DNA of 45,010 nt from Minisyncoccota bacterium (lineage in GTDB: Bacteria > Patescibacteriota > Minisyncoccia > Phycocordibacterales > JACZSL01), in the NCBI GenBank assembly GCA_028280145.1, contig JANQMM010000048.1:1-45010 (forward strand), read 5' to 3'. The notes below the pieces were generated by a model. The model had not been told where the DNA came from and did not search any database. It saw only the letters and a program-made list of their open reading frames with translations. The position numbers were made by a program, and so were the translations under genes. Of this stretch, positions 11,038 through 15,517 are shown piece after piece. Position 1 is the stretch's first letter, and every line of letters begins with the position of its first letter.

Positions 11038-11703
11038 ATGAAGATTTTAGTAGTCGATGACGATAAGGCAATACGTGATTTTCTCAAAAAATCATTAGAG
11101 GCGGAATATTTCGCCGTTGATACAGCAGAGGATGGAGAAGAAGCCTTGGCTCTCGCCCGTATCAGTAATTATGATCTCATTAGTCTTGACTGGAATCTGC
11201 CCAAAATGAGTGGTCGAGAAGTGTGCGAGACACTCCGACGAGATGGCTCTACTGTGCCAATAATTGTACTTTCGGTCAGGACAGATACGAGTTCGAAAGC
11301 TGAAATATTGAACATAGGAGCGGACGACTATCTAAGTAAGCCCTTTTCGTTTGAAGAATTCATCGCACGAGTCCGTGCACTACTTCGAAGACCCGGCCAC
11401 ATAGAAGGAGAGATACTTGAGGTGAAGAACGTACAACTTGATACGAAGAAGATGACAGTGACATGCAACAAGAAGGAAATATATTTAACCAGAAAAGAGT
11501 TCATGCTTCTTGAATATTTATTGCGAAACAAAGGCTCGGTAATGTCTCGAGGAATGATTATGGAACATGTTTGGGATATGAATGCAGACCCTTTCTCAAA
11601 CACGATTGAATCACACATCATGAGCTTGCGTAGAAAAATTGATCAGTCGGGGAAAAATAAAATCATTCAAACAATTCCGGGAAGAGGATATAAGATCGAA
11701 TAA
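11038..11703 (+). CDS. OmpR/PhoB-family response regulator
   Basis: 221 aa. Receiver domain residues 1-120: acidic pocket D7-D9, phospho-acceptor D51 (ISLDWNLPKMSG), a Ser at 79 in place of the usual Thr (IIVLS), and K101 before P102. A winged-helix domain occupies about residues 128-221, with TRKEFMLLEYLLRNKGSVMSR and a C-terminal IIQTIPGRGYKIE hairpin. It is a DNA-binding transcription regulator switched by phosphorylation. The likely partner kinase is encoded 1.9 kb downstream, with two unrelated genes in between. A PhoB-like direct repeat upstream suggests autoregulation or control of the divergent pil operon (inference). Confidence 0.95.
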   Translation: MKILVVDDDKAIRDFLKKSLEAEYFAVDTAEDGEEALALARISNYDLISLDWNLPKMSGREVCETLRRDGSTVPIIVLSVRTDTSSKAEILNIGADDYLSKPFSFEEFIARVRALLRRPGHIEGEILEVKNVQLDTKKMTVTCNKKEIYLTRKEFMLLEYLLRNKGSVMSRGMIMEHVWDMNADPFSNTIESHIMSLRRKIDQSGKNKIIQTIPGRGYKIE

Positions 11704-11863
11704 AGAATCTGTTGTAAAAAAATATGTATGTAAAGGTCATGAATATTTTTTTGTGATCTTTTTTGCATTTTTATTTAAACTTTAATTTATCAAAAATACA
11801 TGCTCAAAAAGGTATTTTTAGAAATGGACATACGTACTTTAAAATACACAGGAGGAATGAAAA

Positions 11864-12853
11864 ATGTCCGAACTACTTCATACAGTAACGCGTAGTACCC
11901 TACCCGATAACGCCGACCTCAATACGGTGTATCGACTTACCCCCATAGATCCGGACGAAGCCTACTACCAGGAAAGAACTGATAGAAATATCGGCTGGAT
12001 CACCAAAGAAGAACAGCAGATGCTCAAAGGTGCAGTTGTCGGTATCGCTGGTTGTGGCGGAATGGGCGGTACATTGGCTCAGATATTTGTCCGACTCGGT
12101 GTCGGCGAAGTTCGTATTGCGGATTGCGAGGAATTCGATCCGTCGAATATAAACCGACAATTTGCCGCAAGAAGAAATACCGTCGGCGTTTCCAAGGCCA
12201 TCGCAACTGCAAGAGCGGTGCGGGATATCAGTGACGATACCACCCTCGTCGTATATCCTCAGGGAATTGTGGAAGAAACGGTTGAAAGCTTTGTCACCGG
12301 TTGCGATGTCATTTGTGACGAGATCGAATTTTGGGCAATTGGATCTCGCATTCTTCTACATCAGTACGCAAGAATGATCGGCGTTTCCTCGTTTGTCTGT
12401 AGCACAGTCGGTTTTGGCACAAGGTTGATGAAATTCAATCCAAGCGGCCATACCATGGAGTCGTGCGTTTCACTTTCACTTGAAGATGCATTGATTATCC
12501 AAAACAAAATACAGACGAGGACCGCCAACAGTGAGGATGTTAGAAGCATTATGACAAAACTCACCACAGGTCTTGTCCCCAATGTGCACGGCTATACACT
12601 ACCCCATCACTCCTTCGATGACCATGCGCTGGTGCTTGAACGGCTGGAAAAAGAAAATAGTGCTTCTATTCTATCCACCAACCCAAGTATGGCATCAGGC
12701 TTTCTCGCCGATCATGTATTACTTCACCTCTTGAATGGCTCACGTTCAAGAGATGTGGTGGAGCCGCCGGAGCCGCCGGGTTACCTATATTTCGATGCCG
12801 CACGAATGGATGCGCGAGTTGTCACACCAGGCGAGGTGAGAGATGAAAACTAG
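11864..12853 (+). CDS. ThiF/E1-like adenylyltransferase-fold protein
   Basis: 329 aa. The Rossmann core has the ATP loop VGIAGCGGMGGT (residues 59-70), D87 in RIADCEEFDPSNINRQF with the N97/R98/Q99 signature of ThiF/MoeB/E1 enzymes, and K111. These proteins adenylate the C-terminus of a ubiquitin-like or small carrier protein, or a peptide. I see no zinc-binding CxxC pairs and no adjacent ubiquitin-like or ThiS gene. C179 and C201 are the best candidates for a thioester Cys. The C-terminal third is not recognised. Good SD (GGAGG 11851-11855). The stop overlaps the next start by 11 bp, so the two proteins probably act together. Substrate unknown. Confidence 0.85.
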   Translation: MSELLHTVTRSTLPDNADLNTVYRLTPIDPDEAYYQERTDRNIGWITKEEQQMLKGAVVGIAGCGGMGGTLAQIFVRLGVGEVRIADCEEFDPSNINRQFAARRNTVGVSKAIATARAVRDISDDTTLVVYPQGIVEETVESFVTGCDVICDEIEFWAIGSRILLHQYARMIGVSSFVCSTVGFGTRLMKFNPSGHTMESCVSLSLEDALIIQNKIQTRTANSEDVRSIMTKLTTGLVPNVHGYTLPHHSFDDHALVLERLEKENSASILSTNPSMASGFLADHVLLHLLNGSRSRDVVEPPEPPGYLYFDAARMDARVVTPGEVRDEN

Positions 12854-13448
12854 ATCTCAACTGAGTGTTAGCATTGTCACCGAACAGAGAGAAAAAGAAG
12901 GTGTTCTAAAACATGTAGAGCACGTGTATATGGAACACTTTGACGTTAAACCTCCTCCCATAGAGGTTATTTTTGTCGCCAGAGAAAACTCAAAGATCGT
13001 GGGAACGTTGGGGTTTGACTATTGTAACGGTGACGGTGAGATGCCGCTTGAAGAAATCTTTGCATTCGATAAAAACAAAACTCCGTTGACATATGATCCG
13101 CGCAGATCAATCCAATTCAGTCGATGGACCGCCGAGAACCCGAAAATTTCCATAGTGCTTATCTACGCTTCAACGCTGTATGCCTTAAACAGAGGGATGT
13201 GTTACGGGTGGAGCGAACAAAAGGAGAAAGCCGCAAAGTCGGCTATACGAGCCGGAGTGCAGCTACATGAAGTATGCGACGCCGTGATCAGAACAAATTC
13301 AATTCCCCGAGAGATAAGACGATTCTACACGACTAAGCCCGCGCCCAAGCTCTACATGGTTGAGCTTGGACAAATGTTACGCGCAGCCTCAAAACGAACA
13401 TCTTTATTGATAAGTAGTGGGGTGTTGCATTTGGAGAAAAGTGCCTAG
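12843..13448 (+). CDS. GNAT/LuxI-like N-acyltransferase (putative)
   Basis: 201 aa. The pattern is that of LuxI/FeeM/thermostable-hemolysin type N-acyltransferases: VIFVARENSKIVGTLGFDY (an oxidised-substrate strand pair near residues 43-61), an acidic PLEEIF segment, IQFSRWTAE near residues 90-97 in the position of the family's E-x-GRLAV-like strand, then an ALNRGMCYGW helix-turn. I infer transfer of an acyl group to an amine. The start overlaps the ThiF-like gene by 11 bp and has its own SD (GAGGTG, spacing 4). The final 30 residues are unassigned. Remote assignment: a general GNAT is the safe reading. Confidence 0.6.
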   Translation: MKTRSQLSVSIVTEQREKEGVLKHVEHVYMEHFDVKPPPIEVIFVARENSKIVGTLGFDYCNGDGEMPLEEIFAFDKNKTPLTYDPRRSIQFSRWTAENPKISIVLIYASTLYALNRGMCYGWSEQKEKAAKSAIRAGVQLHEVCDAVIRTNSIPREIRRFYTTKPAPKLYMVELGQMLRAASKRTSLLISSGVLHLEKSA

Positions 13449-13481
13449 GAAAAAAGGTGTCTACTCGAGCCTTGATTTGAG

Positions 13482-13520
13482 CCTCAAGTCTCTCAGAAAT
13501 GTTTGACTTGAGGTTTTTTT
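13482..13520 (+). terminator. Terminator after acyltransferase gene
   Basis: CCTCAAGTC (13482-13490) pairs with GACTTGAGG (13505-13513); loop 14 nt; then seven T. It closes the ThiF/acyltransferase unit. Confidence 0.8.
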
Positions 13521-13549: not shown

Positions 13550-13624
13550 ATGACGCCACCACTGTTTCTATTTAGTGTTATATCAATTCTTGTTTTTTTG
13601 GTTGGTTTTTATGTTTTCTTATAA
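13550..13624 (+). pseudogene. N-terminal fragment of the histidine kinase, cut by TAA
   Basis: ATG at 13550 opens a 24-codon stretch reading MTPPLFLFSVISILVFLVGF and so on, a first membrane helix typical of sensor kinases with a multi-helix N-terminus. It ends at TAA (13622-13624). The same frame continues without another stop into the kinase gene, and the codons just after the TAA (reading NQKGVVHRVFFLFSLG) fit the expected loop and second helix. AAA (Lys) to TAA would explain it. Confidence 0.65.
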
Positions 13625-13666: not shown

Positions 13667-15517
13667 TTGGGTGTAACTACGTGGGTCGCGAGTTTTGTGT
13701 TTCTTGCTTTAACAGAACTGCCAGTATTCGCAAAACTCATACTTCTTGGCGGAACTCTCGTTGTCGGAACACTTTATGTACTTTCATATATATTCCCACA
13801 AAAAGACAAGGTTCCCGCAAGAGTTTTGTTAGCACTGTTGCCACTATACACTACGGCCATAATTATTTCATTTTCACCACTAATTATACAAGGAGCAATC
13901 GTACACCAAGACGGCCACCTTGAACCAATAAACGGACCTCTGTTTCCTTTGTTTGCGGTAATTTTCATCGTATATATCGTTGCCACGATAGTGCAATTTT
14001 TAAAAAGTTACCGTTCCTCTGCAGGACGTGCGCGTTTGCAAATAAGATACTTTTTCATGGGGCTGGGTATTTTTATAGTAGCAGCGGTTATTTTTGATGT
14101 GATACTCCCCTGGATTGGAATAACGGAACTCAATGTGCTTGGCCCCATGGCCTCACTAATATTTGTAGGATCTACTGGTTACGCTATTGTTCGACATCAA
14201 CTACTTGACATCAGGATCGTCATCCAACGAGGTATTATTTACACGACATTGTTTGTCCTGATTATCGGATTGTACCTCTCACTTATAGCTTCTCTTGGTT
14301 ACCTGGCACACATCACCGCAGATTTAGCAGCGATTATTGCTGCAGGTATTACCACAATCATAGGTATTTTCACTACCCCGACGATTGATCGCTATCTGCG
14401 AAAAATTACCGATGCGTTTTTATTTAAAGATAGATATGATTATTCTGAAGCATTGTATGAGCTGAGTAAAATACTAAACCATAACGTTGACGTTGACACC
14501 ATAACGAATGAATCTGAAGAAGCGTTGCGGAACATACTTCGCGTATCAAGAATAGAGATTTTTTCAAATAGTAAATTTAAAAATTCCAAACATATAAAAA
14601 AGGAAGAAGGCGAATTGCTAGTACCAATCAGTTATAAAAATCAGGTACGAGGATGCATTATTGTAGGATTGAAACGTTCCGGCGACCCTTTTACCAAAAA
14701 AGACCAATCGCTTTTGAACACCTTTGCCGAGCAAGCGGGCATTGCACTTGAAAAGGCAAGTCTTTTTAGAGAAGTGGAAAGTTATTCGCATAAACTTGAA
14801 GAAAAAGTTCGAAATAGAACCGCAAAAATAGAAAAGCTACAAAAAGACCAGGAACAAATGATAATTGATATATCTCACCAACTCCAAGATCCGCTGACTA
14901 TCGCAAAACTTGAAATTGAGACGATCAAAGAAGAACCTTCGCAAGGCAAAATCGTCACCACACTTGAAAAATCACTTGATGACATTTCAGACTTCACTTA
15001 TCGTTTAATACGACTTGCAAGACTAACCCACTCACCCGCAAAAATTGAAAAAGAGATGCTTAGTATGAGTGACATGCTTAAAGAGACAGTTGAATATTTC
15101 GAGATAATAGCGCAGGAAAAAAGAATAACCGTCATGTACTACATAGAACCGGATCTATACATGTATGGGAATAGAAAGAGTCTACAGGAAGTAGTAACCA
15201 ACCTGCTTTCCAACGCCATAAAATACAACGTACGAGATATAAAGGATAAGAGAATATATGTTGGTTTATTTGAGAAAGACGACAACATTGTATTAACCGT
15301 GCAGGATACCGGTATCGGCATCGCTACAGAAGAGCTTCCTTTGATATTTAATAGATTTCACAAAGTAAAAAAGGACCCTGCCTTAAACATCAAAAGTGTT
15401 GGTTTGGGACTTTCCATTGTAAAGCGCATTGTCGACCTTCACGGTGGAAATATAGATGTTTTAAGCGCTATAAGTAAAGGTGCGACATTTACCCTCTCGT
15501 TTCCCAAAAAGAGCTGA
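13667..15517 (+). CDS. Membrane sensor histidine kinase (N-terminus interrupted)
   Basis: 616 aa as an open frame from a TTG at 13667. It has about seven remaining hydrophobic helices (residues 1-240), a GAF-like domain (about 255-365), a coiled linker, then HisKA with DISHQLQDP and phospho-acceptor H404. The HATPase domain has N box TNLLSNAIKY (511-520), G1 DTGIG (547-551) and G2 VGLGLS (578-583). It is a complete catalytic kinase and likely partner of the response regulator at 11038. An in-frame TAA 43 bp upstream separates it from its probable first membrane helix, so either translation restarts at a non-ATG codon or the gene is newly broken. Confidence 0.88.
   Translation: MGVTTWVASFVFLALTELPVFAKLILLGGTLVVGTLYVLSYIFPQKDKVPARVLLALLPLYTTAIIISFSPLIIQGAIVHQDGHLEPINGPLFPLFAVIFIVYIVATIVQFLKSYRSSAGRARLQIRYFFMGLGIFIVAAVIFDVILPWIGITELNVLGPMASLIFVGSTGYAIVRHQLLDIRIVIQRGIIYTTLFVLIIGLYLSLIASLGYLAHITADLAAIIAAGITTIIGIFTTPTIDRYLRKITDAFLFKDRYDYSEALYELSKILNHNVDVDTITNESEEALRNILRVSRIEIFSNSKFKNSKHIKKEEGELLVPISYKNQVRGCIIVGLKRSGDPFTKKDQSLLNTFAEQAGIALEKASLFREVESYSHKLEEKVRNRTAKIEKLQKDQEQMIIDISHQLQDPLTIAKLEIETIKEEPSQGKIVTTLEKSLDDISDFTYRLIRLARLTHSPAKIEKEMLSMSDMLKETVEYFEIIAQEKRITVMYYIEPDLYMYGNRKSLQEVVTNLLSNAIKYNVRDIKDKRIYVGLFEKDDNIVLTVQDTGIGIATEELPLIFNRFHKVKKDPALNIKSVGLGLSIVKRIVDLHGGNIDVLSAISKGATFTLSFPKKS

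Follow-up and report, generated by a model that had tools for sequence, protein, structure and literature searches.

A probable signal-synthase/receptor cassette in Patescibacteria that combines an E1-like enzyme with a LuxI/FeeM-fold acyltransferase

In the 45,010-nucleotide stretch of Minisyncoccota DNA analysed here (contig JANQMM010000048.1, hereafter the window), a ThiF/E1-like gene and an acyltransferase gene stand between the gene of a response regulator and that of a histidine kinase. We propose that the four genes probably form a signal-synthase/receptor module, in which N-acylation and E1-like ring closure give a product that is read by the adjacent kinase. The initial annotation of this DNA singled out the enzyme pair and was silent on its flanks; the flanking two-component system, overlooked there, is the most informative feature of the locus. 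The elements of the unit are the following:

11038..11703, + strand: OmpR/PhoB-type response regulator, 221 aa, with receiver and winged-helix DNA-binding domain (PF00072 E 1.6e-30, PF00486 E 1.8e-25); the orthologue lies directly upstream of ThiF in Patescibacteria relatives
11850..11855, + strand: Shine-Dalgarno sequence AGGAGG of the ThiF gene, read in the sequence
11864..12853, + strand: ThiF/E1-like adenylyltransferase, 329 aa, proposed ATP-dependent cyclase of an N-acyl amino acid (PF00899 E 1.5e-30)
12832..12837, + strand: Shine-Dalgarno-like GAGGTG of the acyltransferase gene, within the ThiF gene, read in the sequence
12843..13448, + strand: LuxI/FeeM-fold N-acyltransferase of the GNAT superfamily, 201 aa (predicted structure, PDB matches)
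13479..13516, + strand: terminator-like hairpin followed by seven T, between acyltransferase and kinase (-18.8 kcal/mol, z -4.4)
13550..13624, + strand: first transmembrane segment of the kinase, closed by an in-frame TAA at 13622-13624 (MTPPLFLFSVISILVFLVGFYVFL*NQKGVVHRVFFLFSLG...; the frame is that of the 13667-15517 ORF)
13667..15517, + strand: remaining histidine kinase ORF, 616 aa, with the rest of the membrane sensor, GAF-like, HisKA and HATPase_c parts (PF02518 E 1.9e-25, HisKA 2.3e-5, GAF_2 9.5e-7)

Both open reading frames of the enzyme pair are present and their genes overlap by 11 bp, as had been described. The strong Shine-Dalgarno sequence claimed for each gene holds for ThiF, where the consensus AGGAGG lies 8 nt before the ATG, but not for the acyltransferase, whose weaker GAGGTG lies 4 nt before the ATG. 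By eye, the ORF list of the window agrees with the earlier statement that no ThiS/MoaD, JAB or thiamine gene is nearby; it contains type IV pilus genes, two-component genes, infC/rpmI/rplT-like genes and a glutamate dehydrogenase gene as neighbours. Rfam and tRNA scans of the window returned no matches, and a search for a promoter excess found none. The enzyme pair (window 12001-13500) has a GC content of about 0.47, compared with 0.38-0.39 in the regulator and kinase stretches on either side, which may reflect a separate replacement of the synthase genes.

The kinase reading starts at ATG 13550 and meets the TAA inside its first transmembrane segment, a region that several relatives read through with a basic residue at or beside that site. 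The window kinase may represent a broken gene, a gene with a later translation start or an assembly error, and may be inactive. In the relatives, the kinases carry an N-terminal 7TM domain (PF16927). A similar hairpin and T run between acyltransferase and kinase was seen by eye at five loci (L016, L018, L022, L023, L026). Right before the ThiF start, a TTTTCTYTTAACAATTTAAAA-like stretch lacking a clear Shine-Dalgarno sequence is common to one subgroup (L018 5875-5997, L023 5844-5967, L028 5871-5997, L029 5855-5949).

The enzyme pair and its characterised relatives

The first protein scores 106.6 bits against the PF00899 cut-off of 28.1, which bears out its description as a ThiF/E1-like adenylating enzyme. 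The adenylation motif of the superfamily (GxGGxG, D, N-x-x-RQ, K, D) is kept, residues G63, G65, G66, G68, N95, R98, Q99, K111 and D152 being identical in 16/16 members of the clade and D87 in 15/16; judged from these residues, the adenylation site is intact. The nearest NCBIfam models are PRK08223 (137 bits), PRK14851 (114) and PRK14852 (75). TcdA and ThiF are found among the best PDB sequence matches, as they would be if the protein were a cofactor or tRNA enzyme (ThiF, MoeB, TcdA) encoded beside an ordinary GNAT acetyltransferase. We consider this extremely unlikely, since the scores lie far under the NCBIfam equivalog cut-offs (75 of 275 bits for ThiF, 55 of 449 for MoeB, 38 of 304 for TcdA) and the canonical ThiF rows fall outside the window clade in the ThiF tree.

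Structurally, the ThiF domain best matches AclA of Tenacibaculum discolor (PDB 9egb), which, like MccB, PaaA and TcdA, is an enzyme of the ThiF fold, although its identity to the window protein is only about 18%; AclA is presumably linked to N-acyl cyclolysine. The fold neighbours MccB, PaaA and ThiF recall that ThiF/E1 proteins commonly adenylate the C termini of proteins or peptides, and the substrate of the pair could therefore be a protein or peptide whose C terminus ThiF activates, for ubiquitin-like tagging, for lipidation or to form a peptide signal. This reading is improbable, given that the window shows no evident gene for a carrier protein, an E2, a protease or a precursor peptide, that a conserved cysteine at position 179 is absent from the ThiF clade alignment and that close relatives are paired with acyl-, formyl- and carbamoyl-transferases. 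The protein tag that had been suggested as one possible outcome of the pair is unlikely on the first two of these grounds. An E1-E2 or Cap2-type anti-phage system was rejected as well: by eye, the cassette has no E2 or JAB gene, and the PADLOC E1-E2 models gave cross-matches to the Rossmann part of the window ThiF only.

For the second protein, the GNAT-type, LuxI/FeeM-like fold originally proposed proved right by structure prediction and PDB matches. The AlphaFold model, built from an alignment of 14 sequences, has a pLDDT of 92.8 and a pTM of 0.88, and Foldseek matches place it in the LuxI/FeeM structural superfamily (E 4e-7 to LasI, 4e-5 to FeeM). AHL synthases (LasI, BjaI, RpaI, MesI, TofI) take the first nine places among its PDB matches, the CoA-dependent BjaI, RpaI and MesI included, and EsaI and FeeM rank lower. 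Profile searches reached no Pfam cut-off for this protein, giving 11.9 bits (E 0.2) against a cut-off of 27 for the FeeM profile PF21926 and no match at E 1 for the LuxI autoinducer synthase profile PF00765, but by structure the fold is that of an acyltransferase, so the objection that the initial annotation had foreseen, a second protein outside this fold, does not apply. PF00765 matched weakly in distant modules only. The protein in the same cassette position at L026 (genome G304) scores 34.4 bits with PF21926 (cut-off 27), and the QFSRW motif of the window acyltransferase occupies the site of E-x-[ST]-R in FeeM-type relatives. A locus search with the acyltransferase sequence alone returned no relatives, probably because the sequence is too divergent, and a search of plasmids found no relative of it. 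Modelling of a fused ThiF-acyltransferase protein gave a pTM of 0.62, a score at which the mutual placement of the active sites is not interpretable; in the joint alignment of fused and separate proteins, three rows read through a stop and serve as an alignment anchor only.

Acyltransferases that work with a ThiF cyclase to make N-acyl oxazolones are known from OxzAB of Pseudoalteromonas rubra, and from TyzABC and TrzAS of mycobacteria (PMC10404671, PMC12856293), and the pathway, first put forward as an undescribed one, is thus not wholly so. N-acyl tyrazolone is produced by TyzA, a CoA-dependent N-acyltransferase whose closest structures are FeeM and BjaI, together with the ThiF homologue TyzB, an ATP-dependent cyclase, and TyzC, a desaturase of the nitroreductase family (PMC10404671), while tryptazolone is made by TrzA/TrzS and requires the aspartate of the ThiF adenylation motif (PMC12856293). 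Acylation precedes activation in these oxazolone precedents (PMC10404671, PMC12856293), and N-acylation followed by ThiF activation would, as we read it, be the pattern common to the ThiF-pair precedents. The window resembles Oxz/Tyz/Trz in that the gene of an AHL-synthase-fold N-acyltransferase adjoins that of a ThiF-like enzyme, in the window a putative ATP-dependent cyclase. It differs from them in phylum, in that a regulator and a 7TM kinase belong to the conserved unit, and in the absence of the nitroreductase desaturase from both the pair and its genome. In this genome (93% complete), PF00881 had 0 matches, compared with 14/14 positive control genomes, which suggests a product without desaturation; the same genome also yielded no acyl carrier protein, which makes acyl-CoA the likely donor.

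Conservation of the cassette and co-variation of synthase and sensor

Within the order, ThiF relatives at E < 1e-30 occur in 6 of 397 genomes, that of the window counted, so the module is rare there; in all six, the four genes follow one another on a single strand, from the regulator through ThiF and acyltransferase to the kinase. Scanning GTDB contigs yielded 18 loci, and the full cassette is present in the same order in 12/12 Patescibacteria contigs long enough to judge (window included), which come from distant families. ThiF and acyltransferase are fused in one of the 12 (L018; a single 544-aa protein in G003). The check for a conserved neighbourhood that accompanied the original proposal thus has a clear answer: the ThiF-acyltransferase pair recurs in every complete Patescibacteria relative found, and because of this recurrence the pairing is not chance. 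A small signal-like product, among those suggested at the outset, stands as the best reading, with the E1-like and LuxI/FeeM-fold enzymes coupled in a conserved unit.

Two-component genes commonly adjoin many operons, and in the window the terminator-like hairpin parts the acyltransferase from the kinase, as might be seen if regulator and kinase stood beside a metabolic gene pair by happenstance, without a functional link. There is very little to be said for such a coincidence, however, when the order of the four genes is unchanged across 12/12 contigs that represent distant families, when a 7TM kinase adjoins ThiF in 11/13 more distant loci too, and when most cassette genomes have a single 7TM kinase of this type.

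Three loci lie outside the Patescibacteria (L020, L021, L025). Two-component genes are lacking beside the ThiF-acyltransferase pair of Legionella norrlandica, where an alpha/beta hydrolase gene follows, and beside that of a gammaproteobacterium; in a Rickettsiales MAG, ThiF was the sole member recognised. The ThiF proteins of these lineages nest inside the Patescibacteria cassette clade with a support of 100/99 in the ThiF tree, which suggests horizontal transfer between Patescibacteria and those proteobacterial lineages, in either direction.

Across the 12 cassettes, acyltransferase distances correlate with those of the kinase 7TM domain (Spearman r 0.77, Mantel p 0.0002; as the Mantel permutation ignores shared ancestry, the contrast between domains weighs more than the p value), but show no such relation to ThiF (0.17), to the regulator (-0.07) or, within the sensor protein itself, to the kinase domain (-0.08). 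Regulator and kinase domain correlate with each other, as they should (0.57, p 0.0002). The correlation of acyltransferase and 7TM domain is 0.62 (p 0.002) without the FeeM-type loci, and the partial r is 0.74 (p 0.0002) with ThiF and kinase domain controlled. With seven distant modules added, the values are 0.62 and, for the partial correlation, 0.58 (p 0.0002); within these seven modules alone, the relation is inseparable from general divergence (partial r 0.10, p 0.36). The acyltransferase thus tracks the sensor and not the kinase domain, a pattern that a synthase and its receptor would be expected to show.

This co-variation bears on a further explanation, in which an N-acyl amino acid or oxazolone is the end product (an envelope lipid, an antimicrobial or a stress compound) and the two-component system controls its production on another cue. 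Such an arrangement would accord with the fact that the characterised relatives have no known signalling role, that N-acyl tyrosine derivatives can be antimicrobial (PMC12856293), that ThiF-acyltransferase pairs without a kinase exist and that an MFS transporter lies beside related plasmid genes. An acyltransferase that co-varies with the sensor, and not with the kinase domain or the regulator, would nevertheless be unexpected if the kinase sensed something unrelated, and we regard an end product of this kind as unlikely.

ThiF genes and 7TM kinases in the phylum, and the proposed signal

More distant ThiF relatives are found in 14/380 genomes of the phylum, that of the window included, and 11 of 13 such loci have ThiF directly before a 7TM-type kinase, together with a FeeM/GNAT acyltransferase or a methyltransferase; the acyltransferase is once an N-terminal fusion. 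HisKA_7TM kinases are present in 97/240 sampled genomes. In the phylum survey, for which genes were called by a simple longest-ORF rule, a same-strand ThiF gene lies at most four genes upstream of 30/77 7TM kinase loci, and ThiF accounts for 25 of the 150 genes at positions -1/-2 versus none of the 87 at -5 or farther upstream (Fisher p 5e-6). Position -1 is most commonly occupied by a ThiF, methyltransferase, nitroreductase or FeeM/autoinducer synthase gene; more distant genes are chiefly housekeeping, regulator or dehydrogenase genes.

Several further arrangements were observed. A variant module of ThiF, methyltransferase and 7TM kinase occurs at L053, L054, L055 and L057 (G525, G546, G454, G496), with an extra GNAT-like gene and a small membrane protein upstream in G525 and G496. 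Small-molecule enzymes often precede the 7TM kinases at L059-L088 and L093-L172 (ThiF, nitroreductase, methyltransferases, FeeM/autoinducer synthase, DDAH-like, DUF362). At L093-L172, 5/72 control genes upstream of 7TM kinases encode a Glu/Leu/Phe/Val dehydrogenase and one an aromatic amino acid lyase, for which precursor supply is a possible role. On plasmids of Staphylococcus epidermidis, Limosilactobacillus and Corynebacterium (L089, L090, L091), ThiF is paired with a carbamoyl- or formyltransferase, beside an MFS transporter in two of the three, and this plasmid group is the sister of the window clade in the ThiF tree. On a Nitratidesulfovibrio plasmid, within a PEP-CTERM region, a triple fusion joins FeeM, ThiF and nitroreductase (L092:5080-8004), a further precedent for the acyltransferase-ThiF pairing.

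We infer that the LuxI/FeeM-fold enzyme would move an acyl group, probably from acyl-CoA, onto the amino group of an amino acid or amine, and that the E1-like enzyme would adenylate the free carboxylate of the N-acyl amino acid and close a ring (azlactone/oxazolone, lactone or lactam) in the manner of TyzB and TrzS, minus the desaturation step. The product would then reach the neighbouring 7TM histidine kinase, leading to phosphorylation of the OmpR-type regulator encoded upstream. In this way the module would report its own product, and the conserved modular synthase-sensor cassette most likely serves signalling, either quorum-sensing-like or directed at a host.

The window acyltransferase shares its predicted fold with LuxI-type AHL synthases (BjaI, RpaI, MesI), and most of its relatives have at the same site an [EQ]-x-[STG]-R motif as found in these enzymes. 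Unlike them, it has no PF00765 match, would leave ring closure to a separate ThiF and would have a kinase instead of LuxR as its receptor. In CqsA/CqsS, LqsA/LqsS and AinS/LuxN, the signal synthase gene adjoins the gene of a multi-transmembrane sensor kinase; a synthase gene is likewise linked to a membrane sensor kinase and a regulator in 12/12 cassettes, whereas the synthases of those systems belong to other families and are not known to work with an E1-like enzyme. A 2020 paper that predicted quorum sensing in CPR/DPANN reported 18 LuxI homologues from CPR genomes next to a sensory kinase (PMC7567580); its main text makes no mention of ThiF, FeeM, a four-gene cassette or sensor-synthase co-variation. 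A literature search for ThiF or FeeM in CPR/Patescibacteria found nothing. The E1-like partner in a four-gene cassette, the phylum-wide extent and the sensor-specific co-variation appear to be new.

More tentatively, this type of signalling may be widespread in Patescibacteria: an E1-like enzyme, working with a LuxI/FeeM-fold acyltransferase or with another partner such as a methyltransferase or nitroreductase, would give a cyclised signal for a cognate 7TM kinase of its own unit, and some two fifths of the 7TM kinases in the phylum sample would be receptors of ThiF-made signals. Patescibacteria are thought to make few metabolites, and the cassette is kept whole in them despite this. The role of ThiF-made N-acyl ring compounds in mycobacteria has been called a "major unresolved question" (PMC12856293). 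If our proposal is true, it would provide a concrete receptor for this class of compounds, as well as a genetically defined communication system, open to testing, in a largely uncultured group of organisms.
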